Origin: Zopfochytrium polystomum
Taxonomy: Eukaryota > Chytridiomycota > Chytridiomycetes > Chytridiales > Chytridiaceae
Direction of reading: 5' to 3'
Assembly (NCBI GenBank): GCA_025765615.1
Contig: JAIVFJ010000115.1
Coordinates: 124,001 to 188,000 of the forward strand
Length of the DNA stretch: 64,000 bases
The position numbers and the translations under genes are program-made. This document shows, in pieces, positions 12,793 through 49,491 of the stretch. Each line of letters opens with the position of its first letter. Positions within the stretch are counted from its first letter, which is position 1. The notes under the pieces are model-generated. The model saw only the letters and a program-made list of their open reading frames with translations. It searched no databases and was not told where the DNA came from.

Positions 12793-14700
12793 TCATATCG
12801 ATTCGCTGTAGGACGGAGGAAACAACTCCCCCGCTGGTTGCTGCACCGTGTTTCGCGCCACACCCGCTGGCTTCTTCCACGTACTATCAGTTCGCGCTGG
12901 CCTCCCTCCCGTCGCCGACTGCGCCGACGCCGCGATCGGCGACACCCACAAAACCGACCCGGGCTCCGTCTCCGTCATCGGAGGCGCCTGCTGCGGCTGC
13001 GGCTGCGGCGGCGCGAACGCGCTCCCTCCGTAAGTGCTGCCGTCGTAGCCGCTGGGATCTACAGCGGCGGCACCGTGGTGGTACGATCCCGCGTACCCGT
13101 CGTGGTAACGCGGTCCGAGCTTTGTCGCGCCCGGGTCGTGCGGGCTGCTGCCGGTACCGTGCTCTACGGCGGTGGAGGCGCCGTGGTGGTACGACCCCCA
13201 GGCGCCGTCTTGCAACGACGGGTCCGGCGTCGTCGCGCCGCCGCCGCCCGCGGGGGGCCACAGCGGCTGCTGCGATTCGGGGATCGGCTGCGTGTTTGCA
13301 AAGCCGGCGGCGAGCCCGCCCGCGACGCCGCCGCCGCTGCGTGTGAAAGCCGTGGCGACGGATTCGTCGTCGCCGTCTCCAGTCCTTCTTCCGTTACTGC
13401 TGCCGCCGTCGCCGCTGGGCGTGTATCGGTACCCCGCCACCGCCGCCCCGCCGCCGCCGATCGACCCGGCCGCGTCGTCTTCCCCCGCCGCGGCGCGCTT
13501 CCGCTTCCGCAGCACCAGCACGACGACGACGACCGCGGCGGCCGCGACGACGGCCACCATCGCGCCCCCGACGATGCCGCCGATGAGGACGCTGCTGCGC
13601 GCGGCGGCGGCGGCGGTGCCGTCGTCGCCGCCGTTGGGCGGTGCGGTCGGTGCGGTGGAAGCCGAGGTGGATGTGGAGCGCCGGGCGGTCGTGGTGGATG
13701 CGGTCAACGCGGTCGGCGAGAGGTCTTCTGGGGGGACGGAGCCGTTGAAGATGCCGTTCACCCACTGCCACCACGGGAACGTAACGTAGCGGTTGGGATA
13801 GCTGTAGGGGTAGTTTAAGCCTTTCTGTTGGGTGAGTGTGCATCCGTGCGGGCCGATTTCGAGGGTTAGGTGTCTGGAATCAGTTTGCTCAAAGGACATG
13901 TTGTTGTTTACCATAATGCAGGATCCGTTCGCAAAGTACATGGCTGCCGAGCAACGGTCCCCGTCGTTCTGGCACGTGTTGGCGCATTCGTTTAGCGTGA
14001 CGTTCAAGTACCACGGTCCGTACGAGCTGTCCTCAAAGTACTATTGGAAGGTATGGATGGGTGCGCAGCGAGTGAGCAGAACCAGATTCCATTGGAGGCC
14101 AGCGGCCAACAATTGCATTCGCCAGAAAAGCAATCTCCTCACCCTTCCCGGCAGCACGCATCCCATATCCCCGCCCCACACGATGGTCGCCGTGTCCATC
14201 CGATCGTACTTTTTAATGTAACACCCGGGGAACCCGCTCGCGACCGAGTTCCACACGATCAAGTCGACTTCCTGCGGCGGCACGGACCCACGCACGTAGA
14301 ACATGCAGTCCGGGTACGATATAGTGCCGCGGAGGATCCAGTCCTCGTTGTCGTGCATGTTTGTCTGGTCGGCGTCCTTGAGGTACGCGTGGACGAACGT
14401 GATGGTCGTGTCGCCGAGCGGGTTGCCCGGGAGCCAGACCTTGTTGGCGGCGGCTGGGGCCAGCGGGACGATGACGATGATGATGATGGCGGCGAGGCAG
14501 GCGAGGGCGGCTATTTGCGACAGGACGAGCGCGAGGGCGGTGGTGGTGGCTGCGCGAGAGGATGGGAGGCCGGGAGGGCGGCGTCGTCGTCGTCGTTGCC
14601 GTCGTGGCCGCCCACCACCAGCTGGGCTGGTCGCGGTCGTGGTCGCTGTGGTGGTTGAGACGGTCGCGGTGACGGCGGCGGTCACTGTCATCATCATCAT
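12793..14700 (-). CDS. PAN-like membrane protein, copy C
   Basis: Exons 14700-14143, 14040-13912 and 13824-12793; 572 aa. Exon 1 and exon 2 have the same lengths as in copy B (558 and 129 nt). Start is the first of four consecutive ATGs. Order: Thr/Arg-rich N-terminus, a strongly hydrophobic Ile/Ala segment, module 1 (YPDCMFYVRG, PGCYIKKYDRMD), module 2 (NECANTCQND, GSCIM), FPWWQW, Thr-rich stalk, a membrane span (SVLIGGIVGGAMVAVVAAAA onward), basic stop-transfer, and a long Gly/Tyr/His-rich tail with TETEPGSVLWV and the C-terminal FPPSYSESI. PPSY is a PPxY (WW-domain ligand) motif. Intron 2 (13911-13825) is 87 nt and stop-free, so retention would insert 29 residues. Confidence 0.88.
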
Positions 14701-15287
14701 CGATGCCGCAGCCACCGAACCAACGGAAAAAAGATTTTTTTTTTTCGATCGACTGGTTGAGGCGCCATGCCTTTCCTGTTTTGGAAAGTTTTCGGACCCG
14801 AACTTCCGAAGGGCAAACCTGGCTTTTGCCGGCTGGTCTGGAAAGGTGAAACACTCTTCCAGAAGGCTTTGCCCACGCCGTCGGGACAAGGAAAGAAAAA
14901 GCCCTCCAGCGAAGCCCCTCTGTTTCTCCCTCCCCCGGCTTCTTGACTGCCCATATGTGCTCTATCCGGTTTTTTGATCTCCAGCGTGCCTTCAAAGCCC
15001 ACAAACTTTTTGATGCTGCGAGGGCCACGCGGTGTCAGAAATGGCCAACAAGTTTGAGCGGCAGATTGCTTTCCGCAGTAAGGTTCATGACGGACGGAAC
15101 CAGCTTGTGTACACATCGGAAAACTGTCGAAACGAAGAATGCTCTTTAAGCCAAGCTAGAGCTTTTTTTCAGGCTTCAGATGACACTAGTTCTTGTTCTC
15201 GGACGAAAGAATTGTGTATTAAGGTAGTGTTTAGCCGAACCAAACCGAAAACAAAACAAAACAAACAAAAGGTCTCCTCCCGTCCCG
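14701..15287. other. intergenic between copies C and D
   Basis: Promoter region of copy C and 3' flank of copy D. No gene recognised. Confidence 0.5.
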
Positions 15288-16922
15288 TCAGCAACCGATC
15301 TCTTGTTGCCCCTCTCTTACCCCAACAGCCTCTTGCCCGCTGCCAAACTTTGTCTTGCTGCTCGGATCGGATTCAGTGTAAGCCGGAGGAAACGTCTCCC
15401 GACTGCAACTTACGAGGACCGTGGCGGCCCGTTCCCGCAACCCACCCACCGCGCCGGACGCGTCTTCCTCAGCCCACAGCTTCCCGTTCCCTACTCGCTG
15501 CTCCCCGTCGATCCACCCGGCCGCCCTCGCCTCCTCCACGCGCGCCTCGTGCGCCCGCGCGTACTCGTGTACTCCCACCCTCTCCGCCTCCCACACCTCC
15601 CCGCCGCCGCCGCGTGAGTCCCCGGCCCGGTTCGCCTCGCTCGTCCCACTCCCCACCCTGTTCTGTTGCTGCCGCCGCCACAGCACCAGCCCGACTACCG
15701 CCGCGATCGCTAGGAGCACCACCGAACCGGCCACCCCGCCCGCGATCGCTGCCACCACGATGCTGGTGTTGGTGCCGCCGCTGCTAGTGGTCGCGTTGGC
15801 GGCTGTCGGCTGCACGGTGCCGACGAAGATGCCGTTCGACCATTGCCACCACGGAAGCATGACGTACTGGTCTGGGTATTCGGTGGGGTAGTTGAAGCCT
15901 TTCTGTTGTTGTTTGTGCCAGAGCGAACGGAACGGCGGGGGGGTTGCCGGGGGGGTACAGAGTCATGAGCATTCGGTGTGCGCGAGCAGAGGTTGGTGTA
16001 GGTTCAACACCGTTACCATGATGCACGAGCCGTTGGAAAAATACATGGCTGCCGCGCACCGGGTGTCGTCATCCATGCAAAGCTGTGCGCACTTGACGAG
16101 AGTGGAGTTGCTATACCATTGGCCGTACGAGCTGTCCGCAAAGTACTGGGAGAGGGAAAGTGTAAGAGGGAAAAAAAGCAAAGAGAAAAAAAAAAAAAAA
16201 AAAAAAAAAACTCTCTCCCTATCATATCTCACCTTCCCCGGCAGCATCCAGTTCAGGTCCCCACCCCACACGATCACTGCCCCGTCCATGCTCTCGTACT
16301 TTTTCACGTAGCAACCAGGCGTCCCGCTCGTCGTCGTCGTGTTCTGCTTCCACACGATCAGGTCGACCTCCCCCGCCGGCACCTCGCCGCGGACGTAGTT
16401 CATACAGTCCTGGAACGAGACGTTTTGCGCGCGCTGTTCCCACGCGGCGTTGTCGTGCTGGCCGCCCGGCTGGTCGGCGCTCTGTAGATAGCCCTTGTTG
16501 AAGTAGATGGTGGTGTCGCCGAGCGGGTTGCCCTTGAACCAGACGGCGTTGCTGGCGGCGGGGCAGGGGGCGAGCACCACCACCAGGGCGAGGCCGAGCG
16601 CCAGCAGGACGAGGAGCTCGAGGGCGGCGAGCCGGCGGCGGGGTGCGCAGGTTGGGACACAGGTTGGTAAGATGGGCGGGGCGATGGGGAGGGCGATGTG
16701 GAGGGGGCTTATGTGGTGGGTGGAGGCGGCGAGACGAGTGGTGTGCTGTAGTGGAGTGTGTGGTGGTAGTGATGCGAGGGAGGGCAGACAGCGGTGGAAG
16801 TAGCCATGACGGCGGTGGGGGCGGCGAGATCCGTCTGCGTCTGCGTGCATTGGTTGGGCGAGTTGTTGCAACTGTTGGTGTGTCCAGGTCCAGCAACTCA
16901 ACTTTCTTCTTTGCATGACCAT
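15288..16922 (-). CDS. PAN-like membrane protein, copy D
   Basis: Exons 16922-16233, 16145-16017 and 15902-15288; 477 aa. Start is the first in-frame ATG (16922; a second at 16916). The N-terminus is long and His/Pro-rich and ends in a hydrophobic segment (LVLLALGLALVVVLAPCPAA). Module 1: FQDCMNYVRGEV, DLIVWKQN, PGCYVKKYESMD; module 2: VKCAQLCMDD, RCAAAMYFSNGSCIM. Then LPWWQW, a short stalk, a membrane span (IVVAAIAGGVAGSVVLLAIA onward) and a tail with FPPAYTESD, a PPxY motif also seen in copy C. Most divergent of the set: it lacks the TETEPGSVLW motif. Intron 2 contains a stop, so here it must be spliced. Confidence 0.87.
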
Positions 16923-16943
16923 GTCTGTGGTGCATTTCCTTCT

Positions 16944-16987
16944 CTGTCTGTCTGTCTGTCTGACTGTCTGTCTGTCTGTCTGTCTGT
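16944..16987. repeat. (TCTG)n microsatellite
   Basis: TCTG tandem units about 20 bp upstream of the copy D start, matching the tract upstream of copy A. Confidence 0.95.
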
Positions 16988-17657
<670 letters not shown>

Positions 17658-17947: not shown

Positions 17948-18063
17948 CGGCATTATTTCCGCTCTTAAGCCGCGAGGGCAGATAAAAAGAACTAAACCTT
18001 CGTTTCTGCAACTTTAGCGGACCTTTCCATCAACCAAATTGGCAGGCTCACACTCAAAACTGC

Positions 18064-19611
18064 ATGATGGAGTGTACCATCACCACTCCAACGGCAAGAA
18101 GGCATTACCACCAGCACGGCTCCACGCGGCTTCCACAAGCGGCGGTGCAAAGGCGCTCAGCGAAGGCCATCGCCCTCGTCGCCACCACTGCCATCCTCGT
18201 TCTCCTCCTCCGACCACACGTGGCCAAAGCGGCCCCTGCCTCCGGCAACAGCAACGCCAACCACCTGCACCCTCGCGACCCAGCCCCCTTCCCCGCACCG
18301 GCTTCCAACAACAACGGGCTCTGCGGGAAAAACGTCGGGAGCTGCTACCCCGGCTTTTGCTGCTCGACTTGGGGCTTCTGTGGCAACACGACGGACCACT
18401 GTGGAACCGGTTGCCAGTCTGCTTACGGAGCGTGCACGGGCACTAACACCACCTCGTCTTCAGGCTCTTCGGGAGGTGCGACAACCAACTCGACTGGTGG
18501 TACGACCAGTACAGCAACTACCTCGACTGGTAGTACGACAAATACGAAATCGACCACCACCACTACCAGTGGCAGCACCTCCAAGTCTTCGAGCACGACA
18601 GGGACTCCAACAACATCCTCGACTGGCACAATCCCCGATTTTGTCTCGACGACCGGACAGTGTGGACCCACTTACGGTCTTTGTCCCCTCGTAAGCCCCC
18701 CTCTCTTTGTTTCTTTGAATTTTTGTCCACTAAAGTCGAGTGATTTTTTTACGTTTTCAACCTCAACTACCCGTCCTCCCCAACCTTCCGACCCCTTTCA
18801 CCAGGGCCTTTGCTGCGGCAAATACGGCTGGTGCGGCAGCGATCCTAGCAGCTGCAAAGTAAGCTCTGGCTGCGACAAGCGATATGGAGACTGCGACGGC
18901 TTCCCGCAAGATCCCAAGATCAACATCGTCTACGGCTGCAAGGTGGACAAAACCGTCGCCATCACCTTCGACGACGGGCCGTACACGACGATATCGACGA
19001 TCGCCAACGCCTTCAAAGCCGCCGGCGGATACACAACCTTTTTCGTCAACGGCGACAACGCAGACTGCATCTTCGACCACGCGGCCGCCCTCAAGGCCGC
19101 CTACGACGACGGCCACCAGATCGGCGCACACACGTGGAGCCACCCGGACATCACCACGCTGTCCGAGGCCGAGCTGCGGCGCGAGATGGGGCTGCTGGAG
19201 AGCGCGGTCAAGATGATCACGGGCGCGCGGCCGAATTTTTTCCGGCCGCCGTTCGGGTCGTACAACAAGACGTCGGTGGACATTGTCGCGGACCTCGGGT
19301 ACACGCACTTTGTGCTGTGGGACATGACGCCGCAGGAGCTGTCGAACAATAGGGGCCAGAGCACGTCGGCGGACGTGAAGAACGAAAAGAAGACGTACAA
19401 CAACGCGGATCTGTCGGTCCCGCATATTTTCCTGCAGCACAGCCAGATCAGGAAGACCGTCTCGGACATGGTTCCATTCATTATTAACTGGGCGCAGAGC
19501 AAAAAGCTGAAGATGGTGACAGTGGCGGACTGTCTGGGGACCGGGATACCAAAGTACCGAGATATAGGGCAGCCGACGGCAAAAAATGATAGCTGGACAT
19601 GCGACATATAG
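18064..19611 (+). CDS. secreted chitin deacetylase with two CBM18 domains (copy 1)
   Basis: Exons 18064-18690 and 18805-19611; 477 aa if spliced. Hydrolyses N-acetyl groups of chitin to chitosan at the cell wall. A signal peptide follows a 30-residue N-region (IALVATTAILVLLL). CBM18 number 1 is CGKNVGSCYPGFCCSTWGFC; then a Ser/Thr-rich linker; CBM18 number 2 (GQCGPTYGLCPL, then GLCCGKYGWCGS) is split by the intron. The NodB domain has all five motifs: TFDDGPY, HTWSHPD, RPPFGSYN, VLWDM and IFLQHS, with metal ligands Asp and two His kept. The 114-nt intron (18691-18804) is a multiple of three and stop-free. Tandem with copy 2. Family assignment is firm; activity is inferred. Confidence 0.95.
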   Translation: MMECTITTPTARRHYHQHGSTRLPQAAVQRRSAKAIALVATTAILVLLLRPHVAKAAPASGNSNANHLHPRDPAPFPAPASNNNGLCGKNVGSCYPGFCCSTWGFCGNTTDHCGTGCQSAYGACTGTNTTSSSGSSGGATTNSTGGTTSTATTSTGSTTNTKSTTTTTSGSTSKSSSTTGTPTTSSTGTIPDFVSTTGQCGPTYGLCPLVSPPLFVSLNFCPLKSSDFFTFSTSTTRPPQPSDPFHQGLCCGKYGWCGSDPSSCKVSSGCDKRYGDCDGFPQDPKINIVYGCKVDKTVAITFDDGPYTTISTIANAFKAAGGYTTFFVNGDNADCIFDHAAALKAAYDDGHQIGAHTWSHPDITTLSEAELRREMGLLESAVKMITGARPNFFRPPFGSYNKTSVDIVADLGYTHFVLWDMTPQELSNNRGQSTSADVKNEKKTYNNADLSVPHIFLQHSQIRKTVSDMVPFIINWAQSKKLKMVTVADCLGTGIPKYRDIGQPTAKNDSWTCDI

Positions 19612-36829: not shown

Positions 36830-38464
36830 ATGTCCGATACAGACTTGGCCACTGACGACGATCAGCGGCCATCCACTCGCTTTGCTCTGGTGCACTCGCC
36901 CGCGCACGTTGCCGCCGCCGACTTCCTTCCTTCAAATACCGGACGGGTAAGCTGAGGTGATTCCGTGGCACGCCTCCTAGGAGCCCACCGCTTCTAACTC
37001 CGCGCACCGATTTCCAAACCGATTGCAACCCGCGCATTTCGACGATACCTCCCCTGTGCTCGCACCACCACTCCCCAGGCCGCCGTCGTCCATGCCCTCA
37101 TCGATGCGCTCGCGCCCATCGTCCTTCGCTCTCCTCTTCGCCGCGTCGCGCCGCGCCTCGCCACCGACGACGAGATCCGCGAGTTCCACTCGGAGGCGTT
37201 CGTCTCGAGGATCTTGCGCGGCGGCGAGCTGGGACGGGGAAAGGTGGCTGGTGCTGGTGTGGGAAGCGGCAGCGACGGCGAGGACGTAGAGACGGACGAG
37301 GATGACGAAGATGACGAGGAAGATGCGGGGCTGGCGTAGTTGAGTTTTCTTAATTCTGTGAATATAGGAGTTCAACTTGAACGCCCTTTTTCCACCTTCC
37401 TCCCACAACCCACAATTAGCGACTGTCCGCCGTTCCCGCAGCTCCCAGCCTACGTCCGGACAGTCGCTGGCGGCACCCTCACCGCCGCACGGCTACTCTG
37501 CAGCGGCCAAGTGGATGCGATTGCCCACTGGGAAGGCGGCCGCCACCACGCCCACCGCGACGAAGCCGCTGGCTTCTGCTACGTCAACGACGTGGTGCTA
37601 GGAATCATCGAACTCCACACACGCTTCGATAGGGTGTTGTACATCGATGTGGATGTGCACCACTGCGACGGTAGGGTGGGGGGTCGCATTCGTCTTGTCC
37701 GGATACTGGGGAATCCGTAGCGCTCACAACTCTCATTAACAAACACAGGCGTCGAACGCGCCTTCTCCACCACCGCCAAAGTTCTCCGCGTCTCCCTCCA
37801 CCTCCACGAGCCCGGCTTCTTCCCAGGCACAGGCGCACGCACACCCGCCGACGCCCGCGGCAAAAACACCTCCACATTCAACGTCCTCCTCCCGCGCGGC
37901 ACCCGCACCGCGCCCTTCTTCGCCGCCTTCGTTGCCGCCGTCGCCCCGCTCGTGCCCCTCGCCCGCGCCGTCGTCCTGCAGTGCGGCGTCGACGGCCACC
38001 TCGCGGACCCGCTCGCCGCCCGCGCGTGGCGTGTCGAGGCGCACGGGTTTGTCGCGTGCGTCGCGTGGATCGTCGCCGCGCTCGGACACGCGGGGCCGCG
38101 AGTGAAGACGCGCGGCTGCCCGGAGAGAGACGGCGCGGCGGCGGCAGCGGCGGTGGCGGCGGGCGGGCGCGTGCCGCTGATGGTGCTCGGCGGCGGCGGG
38201 TATGCGTCTGCGACGGCCGCGCGGGTGTGGGCCGCGTGCACCATGGTGATGGCGAGCGGCGCGAGCTGCGTTCCGGGGTGGGACGAGTGGTGGGGGCGGT
38301 CAGGAGTGGCGGCGGTCGGCGGTGAGGAAGCAGGGGTGGTCTTGCGGCTGGTGCGCGAGTGGATGGAAGGAATGGATGTACCCGAGCACGACGGGTACTT
38401 GCTGTTTGGCCCGGACTTTACCATGGAGGGGCAGAAGGCGATGGACGTCTCGGTTGGGTTGTAG
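36830..38464 (+). CDS. class I (HDAC8/RPD3-type) histone deacetylase
   Basis: Exons 36830-36946, 37079-37335, 37420-37670 and 37749-38464; 446 aa. Zinc-dependent deacetylase acting on histone or other acetyl-lysines in the nucleus. Visible: ALVHSPAHV, an acidic insert (about residues 106-124, Glu/Asp-rich), DCPPFPQLPAYVRTVAGGTL, the catalytic His pair in GGRHHAHRDEAAGFCYVND, zinc ligands in YIDVDVHHCDG, the third ligand Asp in VLQCGVDG, and the Tyr loop MVLGGGGYAS. The HHCDG has Cys where most family members have Gly. Introns fall at phases 0, 2 and 1 and all four exons join in frame, which supports the model. Confidence 0.93.
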
Positions 38465-38517
38465 TAAAGAACGATGCTGTCCGAGCAGTGCGAATTGCCG
38501 CAGAAACAAACTGACAC

Positions 38518-39050
38518 CAGCAACACGGGCCGCCTGGTTCAGCCTCCTCGCGGTCGCCCAGTCCAACACGGTTCGCGACGTCCACCGCCGCACCGGCCCC
38601 ATGTCGCGGAGGAACCGCCGGTGTACCTCTGTGGCTTCGTCGTCGGAAAGCTGCCCAGCGCCACCCGCTAATGGACCCTAAAGTAGCGGCTCGTTTGAAG
38701 AAATCTAGTGAGTGGCACGGAGACGGCTTAGGCAGTGAGTACAATGGGTTATTTCCTTTCGGCTGTTGCATTACATGACTCCTCGATTTTTACGGTTCCC
38801 GCTTCCCTGTAATCGTCCAGCGTCGAAGTAACTGCAAGTGCGCCGTCTGTTTCGGAGAGGGTTGGGGGTACGAAGTTATTTAAGAAATACGTGAGAAACA
38901 AATACCACTCACGACCCGGTCAGGTCCTCAAACTCCCAATACACTCCATTGCCCCGCCCACCTCCTCTCACCAAAAATCGAAGATGCACCGTAGTCCTCC
39001 CCATTACTGTACTGCCCCGCCGCAACAAAAGGCTGCGGTACATCCTCGCG
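38518..39050 (-). pseudogene. remnant of an LRR-SAM receptor gene
   Basis: 38650-38518 matches the SAM exon of the gene at 39799-42521: LSDDEATEVHRRFLRDMGP, then VRRWTSRTVLDWATARR, with acceptor and donor at equivalent sites. Near 39020-38972 a second exon remnant reads GEDYGASSIFG before a GTGAGA donor, as in the intact gene. The intron between them is also alignable (for example CTCACCAAAAATCGAAG and GTGCGCCGTCTG). The LRR, membrane and last exons are gone, and the 3' side runs into the histone deacetylase tail. Confidence 0.7.
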
Positions 39051-39798
39051 TCGACGACGGGCTGAGACTTCGCCACGTGAACAAGAACATCGAGGAGTGC
39101 ATCGTGGACATGGAGCTGGACGACGTGGCGTCCGCCCGAGAAGTTGACGAGCCCAGAGCGCAGAGGCTCAGTTGGCAGGCAGCTTCGTGTCTGGAACCGC
39201 GGTGGCGAAAGACTCGACGTGGATGGGGACGCAGCTGGAGTAGACCGACTCGATGACTGTGACGAGAGAGTCGCCGTTTAGGCAGAAGACTGGAGGGCTC
39301 TTGCGTTATTCTCTGACTTGGTGTGTCCTCCGTCAGATGGGATGCAGTTCCGAGAGATGGAATCGAGAGATATTAAGGCCGTGGTGCAATCGTCCGAGGC
39401 CATCCTGCGTGGCGCAAGGGGGGGGAAGGGCGGGCGATTCAAGGGTGGTCAACTAAGAAACGACCATGGGTGGCGCAGTTTGAAAATTCGTTTTGGTTTT
39501 TTCCTGTTTTGGGCCCTGCTGGCATTGACTGATTCGCAAAGAGCACATACACACACTGGTACAATCTCAGAGGATTCGCTAAAAGCATTGCCGTGAGAAA
39601 CGGTGCAGCATGAGCGTTGTGTTGGCCCGCCTGCGAACCACATGCGCGAGAGAACCTTGTATGTGAACCTCCGGCCGGGTGCTAAGGGAATCGACGCAGG
39701 GACACGGATGTACACGAGAACTATGAAGCCAGTTTGCTCAGATATTAGAGCACCGGTTTAAAACATGCCAACCAAAGGTGGCTCACTCCAACCCCCCC
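39051..39798. other. intergenic, no gene seen
   Basis: Probably includes more of the decayed duplication, but I could not align further exons. Confidence 0.45.
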
Positions 39799-42521
39799 TC
39801 AATCGTAGTACGCCGGCGGCGCCACCATCCCCCTCTGCAACGACCCGGCTTCCGTCGTCGCGACCGCCATCGCCTCCTCTGAAGCCGCGAGCCCCAGCAG
39901 CGCCGACACCATCTGCCGCCGCGTCTCAAAGTCCATCGCCCCGAACGCCGCCTCCAGCGCGTCCCGCCCCGTGTGGCCCGACGACGGCGCCGCGGCCCCG
40001 GCCTTGGCGAGTTCAAACTGCAAAGCGATTATTGACGGGCCGTCAAAGTTTTGGGCTTTTGTTGGCCGGAGGGTGGGGGCGAGCGGGGATTGGTGCGTCA
40101 GCGCCAAGAAAAAAAAACTAAAAATAAAACGCAAACACTGACCGGCGAGCAGCCTCACAGCCGCCACGCTCAGCTTCCGCGCGATCGCCCAGTCAAGCAC
40201 GTTCCGCGCCGTCCACCGCCGCACCGGTCCCACGTCGCGGAGGAACAGCCGGTCCAGCTCTTTGGCCTCGTCCTCGGGGAGCATCGAACCGACGCCCCCG
40301 CCGCCTGCGGACGCGTGAGGAGGCGGAGGGTTCTTGGAGAGGTCTGGCGGATGGCGGGGTGGTAGGGAGACGCAGGGGTTGAATTGTAGTTAAAACGAAA
40401 GGAACAAATTCTTTTGCATTATTTACAAGACTCCTTGACTTTCACGGGTAGCGCTTGTTTGTAATCGTTCCTTGTTGAGGCAATGGCGAGCGCGCCGTCT
40501 GGGGGGAGGGGGGGAGGGGGTAACGTATCAATTCATCGGGCCCCTTCGAACGCGCATCCCCCAAAAAAGACTAACTCACCAAAAATCGAAGCGCCGCGCT
40601 GCTCATCCCCACGTCCGTAGTACCCAGCCGGCGCCGCAGGCTGCCACCCCTCCCCGGCCGCAGCACCGCCAACAGCTGCGTCCTGCGGCTGCGACTCTGC
40701 TGCCGCCGCAGCCGCCACCGCGGGCGGGTCGAACGGCGCCAGCTCGCCGCTCAGGACGGTTTTCGCGTTGCTGTCACCGCGGGCGGCTTTACGCCGCCGT
40801 GCAAAGGCTACGGCAAGGACCACGGCGCCGACGAGGACGATGGCGGCGGCAACCGAACCGGCGATGACTGTCGCGGGGGGTGCGTGGAGGAGGGGAGAGA
40901 ATTAGTTTCTATTTTTTTAAATTTTTTTTGTTTTTTTTTTTAAAGTCGGTGTGTTGGGGCTTACTCGGTGTGCTCGAGGTAGACGAGGACTGCTGCGCGT
41001 CGTTTGCAGGTTGTGCTGCAACCATGAGATAAGAGGGTCATTTTAGCATTGGGAAAGTGAAAACGGAATATTTTGGTGGTTATAACTTGGAGAAGTTGAG
41101 GTCGGGGATGAGGCTCCGGTGCTTGTAACGAAGGAACCTGCGGAAAAAAAAATTGTGAAAATTGTGAAAAAAAAAACCAAGGGATAGAATGCACTCAACT
41201 GCACTCGCTTGCGCTTCGCTGGTTCGATGCGTAGGTAAGGCAGTTGTGATGGTAGACGTAACTGGACGCAGGGGTAGGCCGTAAATCTCCCCGTCAGTTG
41301 CGTGTTGACTGAATAGTTGACTCACCTCCCAAAGTAGGTGTTGGGAATCGCCGGCGGAACTCCAGTCAAAAAGTTGTAACCCACGACCCTGGCGAGATGA
41401 TTATGTGCGGTTACGCCGGAGACAACGCTTTTGACAACCCTACCCCCCCCCCCCCCCCCCCCCCCCCCACCCCCCGGAGACCAACGTTTATAAAGTCAAA
41501 TGACGCTCACATATACTGGATTGAGTTTGTCACTCCAAACTCTGCCGGGATTTCGCCAGTCAAGCTGTTGTTGGTGAGCCAACTACGGAGGAGGAATTCG
41601 GCGTTCAGACAGAACGATTCACGAGACTTTTGAACTCACAGGTTGTCCAGGTGAGTGAGTTTGCCAAGGCCGGGCGGGATTCCGCCGGTGAGAAAGTTGT
41701 TTTCGAACGTCCTGTCCACAATGTCAGAAGAGACGTGTACTGGGGTTTAAACGCTTACAAATACTGCAAGTTTTGCAGTCCGCCGTACTCTGTGGGAATC
41801 GGGCCGGTTAAAGAGTTGTTTCGGATGGTACTGTTCGTTTTTGTTTTTTTTTTTTTTCGGAAATCCAGTTTTCATTTTGATTATCCACAATCTCACGACA
41901 AGTTTGTTAAACTTACAGCTGCTTTAGGTTGGGCAGCCGTCCCAACTCCGGCGGCAGCTTTCCAGAAAAGTTGTTCCAATCCAGATACCTTGTTAACCCA
42001 GTTCAGAAAAACGTAGAAGGAAGCACGCGAGGGAATGGAATCGCAAGGAAAATTTGACTAACAAGTAATTCAAACTGTCGATGTTGGATAGCTCGGCGGG
42101 GATGGTGCCGCTCAACGAATTGTACGATAGCAAGCTTTGTGACGGATGGTTGGCCCCCGTCGACAATTTTTCGCCCCCCAACAAACAACGCAGCGCTCAC
42201 ATGGACACAAGGCTCGTGAGCTCCCCGATGCGCGACGACAGCGGTCCTGTCAAGCTTCGGTTTCGAAGATCGCTTTGAGGGGTGTGCGTTTGTGTGTGTG
42301 TGCGGGGTTGGAAAGGGGGAAGTGGGGTGAGGCCAAGTTGAGGAAAGCAGTCTCGTCGTACGAGAATCCGTGGCAACAACCAAAAACAAAAGAACATACA
42401 GCGTAGTCACGACACCGCTGGTGCCGAGGGAGCAATAGATGCCACCGGAGCCGCAGCACGCGTTCGCCGTCCAGTTGACCAGCGTCGGGAAGATTGCCGC
42501 GACGATCGCGCACTGATCGGA
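39799..42521 (-). CDS. LRR receptor with membrane span and cytosolic SAM-like domain (5' exon not identified)
   Basis: Fourteen exons: 42521-42400, 42272-42201, 42134-42063, 41988-41917, 41830-41759, 41711-41640, 41582-41511, 41388-41326, 41261-41200, 41137-41087, 41015-40965, 40867-40580, 40304-40143, 40055-39799; 495 aa, all in frame. Exon 1 is a Cys-rich LRR N-cap (CAIVAAIFPTLVNWTANACC). Six exons of exactly 72 nt, phase 2, each carry one plant-type LRR (for example NNSLTGEIPAEFG), then a last partial repeat and the C-cap NCLTYASNQRSASEC. Ser/Thr stalk, membrane span IIAGSVAAAIVLVGAVVLAV, Ala-rich linker, SAM-like domain (GPVRRWTARNVLDWAIARKL, FDGPSIIALQFELAKAG) and C-terminal PPAYYD, a PPxY motif. 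A signal-peptide exon upstream of 42521 must exist but I could not place it. Probable surface receptor. Confidence 0.85.
41443..41468. repeat. C26 homopolymer
   Basis: 26 uninterrupted C inside an intron of the LRR receptor gene; reads as poly-G on the transcript. Confidence 0.97.
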
Positions 42522-44894: not shown

Positions 44895-45301
44895 CGAGAA
44901 TGGTTAGCCCGCTCGGAGGTGCACCTTGGGAAAACACGGAAACACTTGCTGCAGTTGCGTGCGTTGGGTGGGCACAGAGCCATTGTCCATCAGCAGGTGC
45001 AAGGCGGGCCGGAGGGAGAGGAGCGAACGCCGTGGATTGCGTGCGGTCCGGGGCAGGGGTTGGATTTGCTTGCTGGGGTTGTGCGTTCGTGTTGGTGGTT
45101 GCTTTTTGCAGTCTTCGGAGTTTGATTTCTTCTTTCTTTTTTTTTTTTTTTTTTTTTTCATAACACCCAAAAATGCCTGCGGGGGTGCCACCCGCTCCAT
45201 CACCATCAGCGCATTTTATCGAAACACAAAGAAAACAGCTTAAGAGTAAAACGACCCCCCCACTCCTGCCATGCGCTCACAAACAAAGCACAATCGCTTC
45301 T
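44895..45301. other. intergenic with T21 tract
   Basis: Poly-T at about 45138-45158. No gene. Confidence 0.55.
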
Positions 45302-46792
45302 TCATCCGAAACCTCCCCTTCCTCCAGCTCCTCCGCGGGGACGGCAGCCTTGCTCCGTGCGACCAAAACAACCTTTACGCGCTCCTCGTCCTCCGCGTCC
45401 TCCGCCTTGCCCTTTTCTTTGTGCACAACCCCCCGTCCCCGCCATAGAGGGATTCCAGAGCATCGAGCCCATCGACGTGGGGTCAACAAAATCAACGGGA
45501 CCGCCGGCGCCGTCCATATACCCGTCCTCGTCGTCGTCAGGGCCTACAAAACCCCCGTCGTCGGGCCCGTCGCCCACCGCGTCGTGGTCGTAGAACGGGT
45601 CCATAAAAGGCGGGAACATGGATCCGGGACCGGCGGCGAAGGGAGCAAAGGAAAACGCTGGCATCGGCGGCCGGTACCGCGGATTCCGCGCGCGAGTGAC
45701 GCGCACCGCAGATCCGCGCAGGACGCTGCCGTTCAGCGTTTTCAGCGCTCGCTCCATTGCGGATTCCGTCGCGAAGCGAACAAAACAGAAACTAGCAATA
45801 GATGGGAATGATATTGTTGGTTTTTGGACGACAAGCAAACCAAAAAAAAAAAAAAAAAGGAAAAAATAAGGTTCGAAACTATAACTCACGGCTTATTCCA
45901 GAGCATCTTCACATCCACCACGGTGCCAGCCTCGCCAAAGTGCCTCCGAATCTCGTCGCGCGTCGCGTCCATCGAGAGATCGCCAACATGCACCGTCCGC
46001 GGAGAAAACTCTGGTTCCTCACGGTCCGCGGACCGCGACCGCGTCCGAGACCGCGTCCGAGACCGCGAGAACCCGCCCCGCCTCCTCCCCCCTCTCGGAC
46101 TCCCGCTCCGCCGCCCCCCGCGGTAGTCCCCGTCCCTGCTCCCCGACGACGACAGGCTGCCCCCGCACGTGCTGCACACCGACCCGCGCCGCCGTCGCGC
46201 CCCCGACCGGCCCCCCGCGCCGCCCCGGCCCGTCGACCGGCTCCGCCCGCGCGCCGGCTGCTCGCCGTCGCTCCGCTCGTCGCCATCCGCGTCGGCAAAC
46301 ACGCCGAAGATCTCGCCGCCGCTGCCGCCGGACGAGGCGGGGGCGACAGGCTTCGTTGCCTTTTTCCGCCTCTTCATGCGCCCAAACTCGTCCACGGAGC
46401 CGGTCGAGTCGATCGAAAACGAGCGGCGGCGGCGCGCGGGCGGGAACGCTGGGACCGATGCGCTCGCGGCCGCTTGTGTGGTCGAAGCGGGAACGGTCGC
46501 ATCTGCGGAAGAGGCGGGCTTGCCGCCGTCTGGAGCCTTCTGCTGTTGTTCGACCCGGTGTTCAGCCAATATGAGCCATCGAGTAACATCCAAAGGAGCG
46601 GAGAAAGGACAAAAAGGAGGAAGAGGAGGAACCCACCAAAGGCGCGGCCGCCGTCCCGCCACCATTCGATTGAGTGTGTGGTTTGTTGGATGATGCAAGC
46701 GTCGATGTCACGGGAGGGTCTTGCTTCGGCGATGCTGATGGAATCGATGGCACCGTGTGCGACGACGTCGATGACGGATTGGAATCAGTCAT
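45302..46792 (-). CDS. RRM protein with RS-rich linker
   Basis: Exons 46792-46637, 46542-45890 and 45791-45302; 432 aa. An RNA-binding, SR-like protein, probably nuclear (splicing or mRNA processing). N-terminus Ser/Thr/Pro-rich; SFSIDSTGSVDEFGRMKRRK; an Arg/Ser/Gly-rich stretch with alternating SRTRSRTRSRS; then one RRM: RNP2 in TVHVGDL, DATRDEIRRHFGEAGTVVDV, and, across the last intron, RNP1 in PFCFVRFATESAMERAL. After the RRM the frame is Pro/Asp/Gly-rich and ends in RGG-like sequence. Overlapping that end in another frame is a strikingly protein-like acidic stretch (ELEEGEVSDEEA, stop at 45277), so an extra intron or an alternative C-terminus is possible. Confidence 0.85.
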
Positions 46793-47270
46793 TTTTTTGA
46801 GTTAGGGGAACGCAGTGAAGGAGGTGGGGAGAGGATGGGGATCGGGGGGTCTGTGTCAGGTCTCTTGGAGGCCCAATCTGGCAGCGAAACTCGAAGAATA
46901 TGGCGCCTCCGCTTCGACGGTTTGTAGGTTGTTTTCAAGAACGCACGCACGCCCACCCCCCAACACACGGCGTCTCGCGGATCGAGCTGCTCAACGAAGA
47001 GTGGAGATGGCGGGGAGGGGCGGGTAGGGGATGGGATGGGGGCCAACTGGGGAGGGGGCCGAAGCGATGAACGATTCAATCGTACTGTGTGCGGTTTGGT
47101 GAGGTGGAAGGAGTTTCTTCTTTTGCGTCCCTTGTCAAAACCAACCCTGCGGCCAAAAACTGCTCGCACGTGACACAAACGGCGAGAAAGAAACGAAAAC
47201 AACTGTGCAACGTGCACAAAGCACGAAGGCTTTTTTCTATGAATTACGAGATTTGATTGCAGCGATCTGG
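46793..47270. other. intergenic, promoter of the RRM gene
   Basis: No gene seen. Confidence 0.55.
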
Positions 47271-49491
47271 CTACGATATAACACAACTGTCCTTCTCCTT
47301 CTCGGCCGGTACTGGTGCAGGCCGCGACGAAGAGCCCCTCGGAGGTACTGGACGTCCAGGCCCCAACATCTGCTGTCGTGGCGGTTGTTGTCCACCATGT
47401 TGCTGATAAGCCTGCTGCTGATAAGCCTGTTGTTGATAAAGCTGTTGTGGTTGACCCTGCTGGTATTGCGCAGGCTGCTGTCCGTAACCGTACGGTTGCA
47501 GCTGTTGGGACTGCTGTCTCCGCGCATCCGCTTGAGCCGCTTGCTGTTCCTCTTCCATCTGTAACTGCCGAGCCAAAGCCAGGCTGTCGCAGTTTTTTTG
47601 TTGGTATTTTTGTTTAAGCGGGTAGATGATAAGAGTGAGCCCGTACGAAGTAATAAATGTGGCACAACGGCAAAACAACTCAACTCGTCCTCATATGTCG
47701 GGACCACTGCTGGTTCAGCCCTTCCAGCAGCTTGGGCCTTTGCAGCCTCCCACGCTCTTGCTTGCTCCTCCTGATCGATGCTGTCCAGCTGCACGAGATT
47801 ATCGCTGGAAGGGGTTGGGTCTGGCTGCGAAAATCGGAACAGTCCGTCGACAAACGTCGAGTCTCCTTCGACATTTGACAGCGTTTCCCAAACTACCGAG
47901 CGGCTTGCCGAGGCAAGCCCTTGGTCTGTAACGAGCGTAAGTAGGCCAAAAGTGGGGTGGGCAAAAAGCGTGCAAAAGTGGTTGTTCCGGAAGAGTACAG
48001 AGAGGCTCGACCGCGGAAGAGACTCAACCATGGAATTTATGCCATGGTACGTTAGCTGGGAGGCCGTAGTGTTCAAAAAAGTCTGAGAAACGAGGCCTAC
48101 AGTGCAACGATGAAAGACCGGCATTTAGTCGCAAAATATCTCAAGAATGAGCAGGGCAGCAGACACCTTCGTGCAAGGCATCTCGGGCGCCCTCAGTGGA
48201 TGATGTTGTCGATGGCAAATCGGCCGAAATGGCGCTCTCCACGACCTTGTTGTACGATTTCAGCTTTTGTGCCACAACCCGATGCGTTTCGGAATCCTGC
48301 GGGTCTACTGTCCAGCCGTGGCACAGCGTTATCCCGAACAGGTCGAAGATGAGCAGCGAGGGAGTGACTTCGAAAGCAAATGGCGAGTCAAAGTGGACGT
48401 TGACATCCAGCCCGGTTTGGAGTGAAGGGAAAAGGTCCATGACGTCTTGCATATTTTGCGAAAGGTTGAGGACGGCTTCAGCGTTGGCGCCATGTACGTT
48501 GGATGGCTGGGGGAAAATGAGCAGAGAACAGAAGCGCAAAAAAGGGTAGGCCGTACGGTCACGTTTCGGTTCAGCAGGTAGTCTCCAAGGAGGTCGACAA
48601 GGTGTTGGTAGGTCACAAACGACCGATCCAAGGAGATTGAAATATCACCCCGAAGCAAAAGAACATTGCCTGCATTTACGTTCCATTAAGGTTCATCCAA
48701 GGAAGAGTTCGGCTCAGGCACTCACACAAAGCGAGCAGCGGACACGGCCCATTCTCGTTCTGCGTGATGATGTTGACCTCCATGGGCTGCTTGCCTGGAC
48801 GCGCCCAATCGATTCGTTTCAGTCGGTACTCCTTTGCGGGTTCCGGCATCGACCGAGACGGCGCGATGGACGCAGGCCGCGAAGCAGGTGCAGCTGTCTG
48901 GTCCGGAACGCGCAGGCCGGAAGCTTCGGTTGTTGCAGCGTCGACGGGTTTTGACGGATCTTCCTTCCGGGTATGATCTACAGATGTGGCCGTCAACGCG
49001 ACGCTGGCTATCGCCAGTCGGACAGCATCTGCATGCAGTGCGCCTGGACTGCCAGCTGCTTCTGCGATAGGCTTGGCAGTAGCAGGTGCAGCCGCTATCG
49101 TCGTTTCCGACGGGAGAGCAGGAGATCCCTCCTTTGCAGGATTTGGTGGCGGTGCCGCCGGTGGTGGTGCTGCGCCCTCGACGTGCTGCTCTTGGGATGG
49201 TTCTTTGGCGGGCTCCGCCGAAGGCGGAAGAAGAGGCTCGAACGACGAAGCGTCACGCGCCTCAAGAGAGCCTTGGGTAGATTCGGCAGCAGCAGCCGGG
49301 GCCGGGGCAGCCGGGGCCACCGCGGGCGGGTCGGCCGGCGGGTCGGCCGGCAGCGGGGTCTGGGGCTCCTCTGCATCGACAGCGGGCGCCGGGGCTTCGT
49401 GGTTTGCCTCAGCTGTGGCGGCGTCGACCGGCGCATTAGCAACAACGGGGGTTGTGGGTTCAGTCAGGGGGGAAGCTACTGGTTCAGACAT
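47271..49491 (-). CDS. MINDY-1/2-family deubiquitinase with C-terminal CaaX box
   Basis: Exons 49491-48726, 48669-48557, 48506-48167, 48096-47685 and 47583-47271; 647 aa. MINDY enzymes are cysteine proteases that trim Lys48-linked polyubiquitin. A 200-residue Ala/Pro/Glu-rich N-terminus precedes the catalytic domain: YRLKRIDWA, NIITQNENGPCPLLALCNVL with the catalytic Cys in GPCPL, SFVTYQHLVDLLGDYLL, FGITLCHGW, TASQLTYHGINSMVESL, the catalytic-His segment VLFRNNHFCTLFAH, LVTDQGL and VVWETLSNVEGD. LALARQLQMEEEQQ resembles the ubiquitin-interacting motif of the family, followed by a Gln/Tyr-rich tail. The last four residues, CVIS, form a CaaX prenylation box. Each splice junction restores the family consensus, which supports the model. 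Confidence 0.93.

Follow-up and report, generated by a model that had tools for sequence, protein, structure and literature searches.

The minus strand of a 64,000-nucleotide stretch of Zopfochytrium polystomum contig JAIVFJ010000115.1 (positions 124,001 to 188,000 of the forward strand; hereafter the window) carries, between a first recognised exon at 42521 and a stop codon at 39799, a gene that we consider, with reasonable confidence in the explanation as a whole, to encode a single-pass plasma-membrane receptor belonging to a multigene sensor family of a zoosporic fungus. The predicted architecture, which is very probably correct, has an ectodomain of leucine-rich repeats (LRRs), capped at both ends, on a Ser/Thr-rich stalk; a single membrane span connects it to a cytosolic part made up of a linker, a SAM domain and a PPxY motif that ends the protein. 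The gene and its family are real and the architecture is well supported; the mechanism set out below is one that we infer. A receptor or sensor role of the LRR-SAM proteins is likely, and there is a fair chance that they form a separate receptor class.

The spliced model comprises 15 exons, all on the minus strand and joined by GT-AG introns of 47-127 nt, and encodes 532 residues without a signal peptide. The mature ectodomain starts in an N-cap exon (42400..42521; NWTANACCGSGGIYCS) that contains the cysteine motif CC-x6-C in the form CCGSGGIYC. Six consecutive 72-nt exons in phase 2 follow (42201..42272, 42063..42134, 41917..41988, 41759..41830, 41640..41711 and 41511..41582), the last five of which were also recovered by an LRR exon scan; each encodes one plant-type LRR, so that the spliced model bears out the exon-per-repeat structure proposed in the initial annotation of this DNA. 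A 63-nt exon (41326..41388) adds a terminal half LRR, for which similar short last repeats occur in several paralogs, and the ectodomain is completed by the C-cap exon (41200..41261; NCLTYASNQRSASEC) and two exons of Ser/Thr-rich stalk (41087..41137 and 40965..41015). The next exon (40580..40867) contains the membrane span (IIAGSVAAAIVLVGAVVLAVAFARRRK), recognised by hydropathy as a 21-residue segment with a mean of 2.7 followed by RRRK, together with the start of the cytosolic linker. The linker continues through a further exon (40427..40498) and ends in the exon (40143..40343) that also encodes the first part of the SAM-like domain (VRRWTARNVLDWAIARKLSVAAVRLLA), and the last exon (39799..40055) supplies the second part (NFDGPSIIALQ...FGAMDFETRRQMVSALLGL), the terminal PPAYYD and the stop. 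Both parts of the SAM-like domain are covered by the module alignment and by hhalign, and the terminal motif by the PPxY count; the span, the SAM-like region and the PPAYYD end are as previously described.

The length of the protein had been given as 495 residues, a figure which suggests that the C-cap exon at 41261-41200 was absent from that model. The same exon is skipped, through a cryptic acceptor, in a 506-residue model that was used for the Pfam scan of the window protein and that matched LRR_1 (PF00560) in 5 stretches with an E-value of 3.7e-18. The 532-residue model with the C-cap exon is preferred over the 506-residue model because the cysteine motif of the C-cap, NC-[LF] ... QR ... 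C, is found again in 6 of the 11 other paralogous loci scanned (C42, C250, C121, C6, C214 and C231). At the opposite end of the repeats, the N-cap motif CC-x-x-x-G-[VI]-x-C precedes the LRR exons in 8 of 9 paralogous loci scanned, the exception being L044. A run of almost 30 C (41440-41475), which is likely a site of variable length, lies in the intron that separates LRR exon 6 from the half repeat.

The same architecture recurs in the window's own genome (80 Mb in 761 contigs), which was searched with the SAM module alone; neither the LRRs nor the membrane span were used to find loci. The SAM-to-tail module query returned 19 matches, some of them from the window gene and its neighbours, and a second query added C231 among others; the loci examined were drawn from these apart from weak rows, including C192, C385, C124, C92, C46 and C608. 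In the surroundings of 11 further loci and of the window gene, LRR repeats upstream and a terminal PPxY were present in all 12, and the order of LRR, membrane span, SAM and PPxY given for the window gene in the initial annotation was borne out in open exons at ten intact-looking loci (the window, C528 twice, C42, C250, C299, C121, C6, C214 and C231). The SAM of C231 is strongly diverged, and C50 and C443 are close copies of C121 that are seemingly damaged, their SAM parts lying in different frames. A scan that imposed phase 2 and an LRR motif, and that covered the loci other than C231, found candidate LRR exons with a length of exactly 72 nt in 10 of 11 loci including the window, with 1-9 in each and none in C443. 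Some of the paralog copies lie near each other. Because the LRR exons, the domain order and the terminal PPxY recur in loci that were found by SAM similarity only, the domain order is not due to chance.

The cytosolic module has, with high probability, a SAM fold, an assignment that is sound at the level of sequence. In a 9-row alignment of the LRR-type module (C50, C443 and C231 were excluded from this and from the corresponding hhalign alignment), the invariant positions are W23, W31, D51-G52, L58, L80, G85, R92-R93 and PP-x-Y, and the invariant columns appear to sit where SAM helices would fit. When compared by hhalign, the LRR-type SAM profile (9 rows) matched a second, non-LRR SAM group of the family (7 rows) with a probability of 95% and a score of 45.3, and matched five Pfam-recognised SAM sequences of the same genome (L006 excluded) with a probability of 78% and a score of 31.1. 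Among 100 column-shuffled controls the highest scores in the two comparisons were 18.1 and 17.5, and reversed profiles reached 12.9 and 8.4; the SAM-like domain reported earlier is supported by this profile comparison. The second group is tied directly to Pfam SAM because one of its members, C86:76.6 kb, a non-LRR protein ending in PPPYLG, exceeds the SAM_2 cut-off (29.9-30.9 bits against 20.5); another scanned member of the group reached 20.8 bits against a SAM_1 cut-off of 23. Weak support for the SAM assignment may also be drawn from a PDB profile search, in which five of the 6 matches were SAM proteins (SHANK2 twice, liprin-beta-1, neurabin-1 and L3MBTL3; E 0.014-0.82) and the sixth was a viral F0 protein (E 0.24). 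Two other candidates were rejected. Multi-copy RecA chains from a single-sequence PDB search of the SAM (E 1.2e-4) are an artefact of summing repeats, because each copy alone scores an i-E-value of about 2000, and a Pfam TOR1L1_N match (E 0.017) is far under the cut-off of that family.

A tail of the same kind was found behind ectodomains of other types. Three genes on C86, and loci on C105 and C271, encode a Cys-rich domain (about 110-130 residues) followed by a long Ser/Thr stalk, one span, SAM and a terminal [PL]PxY. Contig C195 carries two tandem genes, the first of which encodes a GH16 domain (PF00722, E 8.6e-27), a stalk, a membrane span, SAM and LPPYSG; the second, a close relative that stops directly after LPPYSG, was not covered by the GH16 scan. 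With the C86-type SAM as the query, 53 matches were obtained at E-values up to 10, of which 34 were under 1e-10. Matches with identical or near-identical scores were observed on C195, C208, C477, C530, C546, C580 and C188, and likewise on C86 and C306. Places of SAM matches are not to be equated with gene counts because equal scores suggest haplotigs or recent copies. Eleven further SAM tails were fetched and PPxY stands at the end of 10, with near-repeats among those ten (C306 with C86:73.5 kb, and C524 with C4); in the C86:16 kb tail the SAM lies in two frames. It is slightly more probable than not that the LRR-SAM proteins belong to a receptor superfamily of zoosporic fungi in which a tail of SAM and terminal PPxY would be placed behind interchangeable ectodomains (exon-per-repeat LRRs, Cys-rich domains and GH16). 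Such a superfamily would be the fungal equivalent of receptor kinases and Toll-like receptors, with SAM clustering as its output, possibly onto a Byr2/Ste11-type mitogen-activated protein kinase (MAPK) kinase kinase (MAPKKK), with built-in control by a ubiquitin ligase.

The stalks suggest a different role. The yeast Wsc/Mid2 wall sensors have a Ser/Thr-rich stalk and one membrane span, and both are present in every member of the family whose stalk was read (the window, C6, C214, C231, C86, C105, C271, C4 and C195). The proteins could therefore be cell-wall sensors of that kind, in which stalk and ectodomain sense the wall by mechanical means or through binding to its polymers, the SAM-PPxY tail docks a wall-integrity pathway, and the LRRs are wall anchors instead of immune-type ligand receptors. 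The GH16 ectodomain on such a tail points to wall polysaccharide, and the concave LRR surface, as described below, is conserved and not hypervariable in three paralogs. However, unlike in Wsc sensors, no Pfam WSC match was found at E-values up to 0.5 in the three Cys-rich ectodomains scanned, and the tails of the yeast sensors, to our knowledge, carry no SAM. We regard a wall-sensor role as plausible while stopping somewhat short of calling it probable. In the same Pfam scan two of the three Cys-rich domains had no match and one had a weak zinc-ribbon score; any likeness of these domains to WSC or PAN was seen by eye only.

The features of the LRR surface bear both on the wall-sensor role and on a role in immunity. 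Among C528a, C528b and C299 (one repeat of C528b and the window gene were not part of the comparison), concave-face LRR residues were equal in 47 of 57 comparisons, and residues at the other variable positions in 75 of 152. The Fisher p of 1.5e-5 serves as a guide only, comparisons within one repeat not being independent. Between the repeats of one protein, the concave residues were equal in 10 of 171 comparisons. This pattern suggests that members of the C528a/C528b/C299 subgroup may share a ligand, and the conserved concave face disfavours fast-changing immune recognition in these three paralogs. An innate-immune or non-self receptor, in which shuffling of LRR exons would create new specificities and SAM clustering would trigger a response, would agree with the several gene copies, some of them close together, and with the encoding of one LRR per interchangeable phase-2 exon, as in the brown-algal ROCO genes, which have been proposed as immune receptors (PMC11378527). 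Hypervariable recognition would predict the reverse of the conservation seen at the concave face, and the immune interpretation is weakened by that conservation to the point of being unlikely.

At the other end of the protein, PPAYYD forms the cytosolic C-terminus, and PPxY is kept in the paralogs. The segment between SAM and tail varies in length and make-up across the family, and the motif stays terminal. The SAM domain had been taken as the only cytosolic module, which does not hold, the tail also containing the linker and the conserved terminal PPxY. A PPxY within the last 12 residues is present in just 2 of the 322 stop-to-stop open reading frames (ORFs) of at least 100 residues in the window, namely the LRR-SAM gene and a PAN-membrane protein at 14040-12796; [PL]PxY was found in 4 of 301 ORFs from 28 loci outside the family, and three of the four are the same stretch in overlapping loci. 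Potential partners for the motif are encoded in the genome: genes in which a HECT domain directly follows three WW domains form a tandem pair on C215 (73.9-80.1 kb) and are present twice on C164 (77.9-84.1 kb), the latter pair of which may be the second haplotype of the former, and their predicted arrangement is that of Nedd4/Rsp5 ligases.

The two PAN-like membrane proteins encoded at 12793-17000 on the minus strand (PF00024, E 6.6e-5 for the one scanned) had been described as a parallel to the PPxY end of the LRR-SAM protein. The parallel stands insofar as a span and a PPxY are common to both, the motif being terminal in one protein (PPSYSESI) and lying about 30 residues before the end of the frame in the other (PPAY). 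No SAM was seen in either; membership in the family is not supported, and the idea of shared ancestry with the LRR-SAM proteins was dropped. If PPxY were the main output, the LRR-SAM protein could be a trafficking adaptor that draws an Rsp5-type ligase to cargo, with the LRRs as a lumenal cargo binder and SAM as a sorting oligomer. Few features of the tail are as constant as PPxY, the PAN-membrane protein in the window likewise ends in it, and the endosomal sorting of Sna3 uses its PPxY and Rsp5 (PMC2171029); the diverse ectodomains, GH16 among them, nevertheless suit surface display better than cargo sorting, and an adaptor role is rather improbable.

For the receptor that we favour, the following mechanism can be proposed. 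The ectodomain would bind, across the cell wall, a ligand that may be a peptide or else a glycan from the wall or the environment, and ligand-driven crowding would lead the SAM domains to pair mutually or with a SAM-bearing partner; signalling based on SAM oligomerisation, as suggested in the initial annotation, is likewise something that we infer. The obvious candidate for such a partner would be the Byr2/Ste11-like protein of this genome, with a MAPK output. The PPxY motif would recruit a Nedd4/Rsp5-type WW-HECT ligase, and the number of receptors would be set by ubiquitination and endocytosis. A clustering function of SAM is moderately probable, as is, to the same degree, turnover of the receptor through a PPxY-bound ligase, and a MAPKKK as the SAM partner is a tentative proposal that is more doubtful than either. 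The candidate partner is a SAM protein at C89 (with a relative at C61) whose Byr2 Ras-binding match, at 22.4 bits, falls short of the cut-off of 27; with the C86-type query, the Byr2-like SAM is the nearest Pfam-recognised SAM outside the family among the rows examined (E 0.001 and 0.008). From its SAM and its Ras-binding match, the C89 protein is a putative Byr2/Ste11-like MAPKKK. With regard to clustering, head-to-tail SAM polymers pair an acidic mid-loop with a basic last helix, and this distribution of charge was seen in 9 of 9 rows of the non-LRR SAM group, including one that was cut out of place. Segment cutting in this charge test failed for 3 of 8 LRR-type rows (the window, C42 and C121) and for 1 of 9 others (C208), with C528b excluded, and the SAM surface charges may be read as a hint only.

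Several observations weigh against the favoured explanation. The charge pattern of SAM polymers is weak and not clear in the LRR group. As a single sequence, the window protein had no match to Pfam SAM_1 or SAM_2; SAM_2 matches were found in 2 of 9 family members with a best E-value of 0.042, and LRR-type single sequences fell below the Pfam cut-off. An AlphaFold prediction for the unspliced SAM ORF, with 29 intron residues kept and no alignment, was helical and uninformative (pLDDT 46.6, pTM 0.29). The intron that splits the SAM (40142-40056) is 87 nt long and open in frame; its retention would add 29 residues, and the paralog C528a has no intron at that place. With regard to the tail, the first C195 gene has about 60 more in-frame residues after LPPYSG, and the frame of the eleventh fetched tail, L074, runs off the fetched stretch with no PPxY after the SAM. 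The neighbouring gene at 44900-43600 on the minus strand encodes a Ser/Thr stalk, a membrane span and an intron-split SAM-like domain, with no LRR or terminal PPxY seen. Outside this genome, no relatives were found at E-values up to 1, either with the SAM region of the 506-residue model among 3755 candidates of 0.55-1.75x length or with the 9-row module alignment among 7997 candidates, which were short proteins only; an absence of relatives elsewhere does not follow from this, because chytrid proteomes may be poorly represented in the database or may have dropped out when candidates were selected.

Finally on the same side, no convincing signal exon was found in the stretch scanned upstream of the N-cap exon, and the joining of the LRR exons to the SAM exons is predicted. 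Both points would also fit an artefact of the gene model in which the LRR exons and the membrane-span and SAM exons belonged to two adjacent genes. However, every intron of the model is short, the four elements stand in the same order at the nine further intact-looking loci, and the C-cap motif is kept after the LRRs at the six loci named above, which leaves an artefact of this kind very improbable.

Compared with known systems, the window protein shares with plant LRR receptor kinases and receptor-like proteins the plant-type LRR consensus N-x-L-x-G-x-[IL]-P, a Cys-containing N-cap and a single span, and the named proteins among the matches listed in a search with the LRR part (120 of 3064) were plant receptor kinases and bacterial LRR proteins. 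Unlike the plant receptor kinases, it carries SAM and PPxY in place of a kinase; no Pfam match to kinase or TIR families was found in the window protein at E-values up to 1. Toll-like receptors similarly combine an LRR ectodomain, one span and a small intracellular protein-interaction domain, whereas here SAM takes the place of TIR. In Eph receptors a cytosolic SAM is followed by a C-terminal peptide motif, as in the window protein, but these have a kinase, a PDZ-binding end and an unrelated ectodomain. Sna3-type proteins resemble the window protein in being membrane proteins with a PPxY; we know of no receptor-like ectodomain or SAM in Sna3. The PPxY of Sna3 binds the WW domains of Rsp5 (PMC2171029). 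Yeast Ste50 uses its SAM to bind the MAPKKK Ste11 and is also a binding partner of Opy2, a single-pass protein (PMC4411306); unlike in this Opy2-Ste50-Ste11 arrangement, the SAM described here lies in the membrane protein itself.

The encoding of one LRR per exon is not new in itself, because brown-algal ROCO genes have published 72-bp phase-2 exons of one LRR each, as in the window gene, and phase-2 introns have been published for gonadotropin receptors (PMC11378527). The brown-algal LRR-ROCO proteins are ROCO-family GTPases and, by the description available, are without a membrane span, SAM or PPxY (PMC11378527). In the survey of Soanes and Talbot (2010), 45 of 49 fungal genomes were without LRR receptors; the five receptors that remained came from four species, including a chytrid, and had no other functional domain (PMC2939053). 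The statement in the initial annotation that no fungal system of this kind is described agrees with our search of the open full-text literature (PubMed Central, with subscription papers and genome portals outside its scope), in which no description of LRR-membrane span-SAM receptors or of SAM-PPxY membrane tails was found, the tail being common even to Cys-rich and GH16 ectodomains.

The 106 matches to Zn2Cys6, a fungal marker, and the match to a radial-spoke protein, a marker of flagella, point to a fungus that has a motile flagellum as the source of this genome. The presence in one flagellated fungus of about ten predicted LRR receptors with a conserved intracellular tail changes the view of fungi as nearly devoid of such receptors, and the LRR-SAM family offers a defined starting point for studying the sensing of hosts, walls or microbes by early fungi. 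The common tail predicts SAM-SAM pairing, perhaps with a MAPKKK, and binding of PPxY to WW ligases.

Elsewhere in the window, the minus strand at 38300-39300 contains a linker-like piece (DGALAVTSTLDDYREA) and a first SAM half (65% identity), with the second SAM half and the tail not seen; this looks like a truncated tandem duplicate, that is, a partial downstream copy of the receptor gene. Upstream of the receptor gene, the minus-strand genes at 45300-46800 and 47200-48500 resemble genes for an RS/RRM splicing protein and for a deubiquitinase of the MINDY type. An ORF on the plus strand (17986-19611) encodes Cys-rich repeats, presumably chitin-binding-like repeats together with a polysaccharide-deacetylase-like domain.

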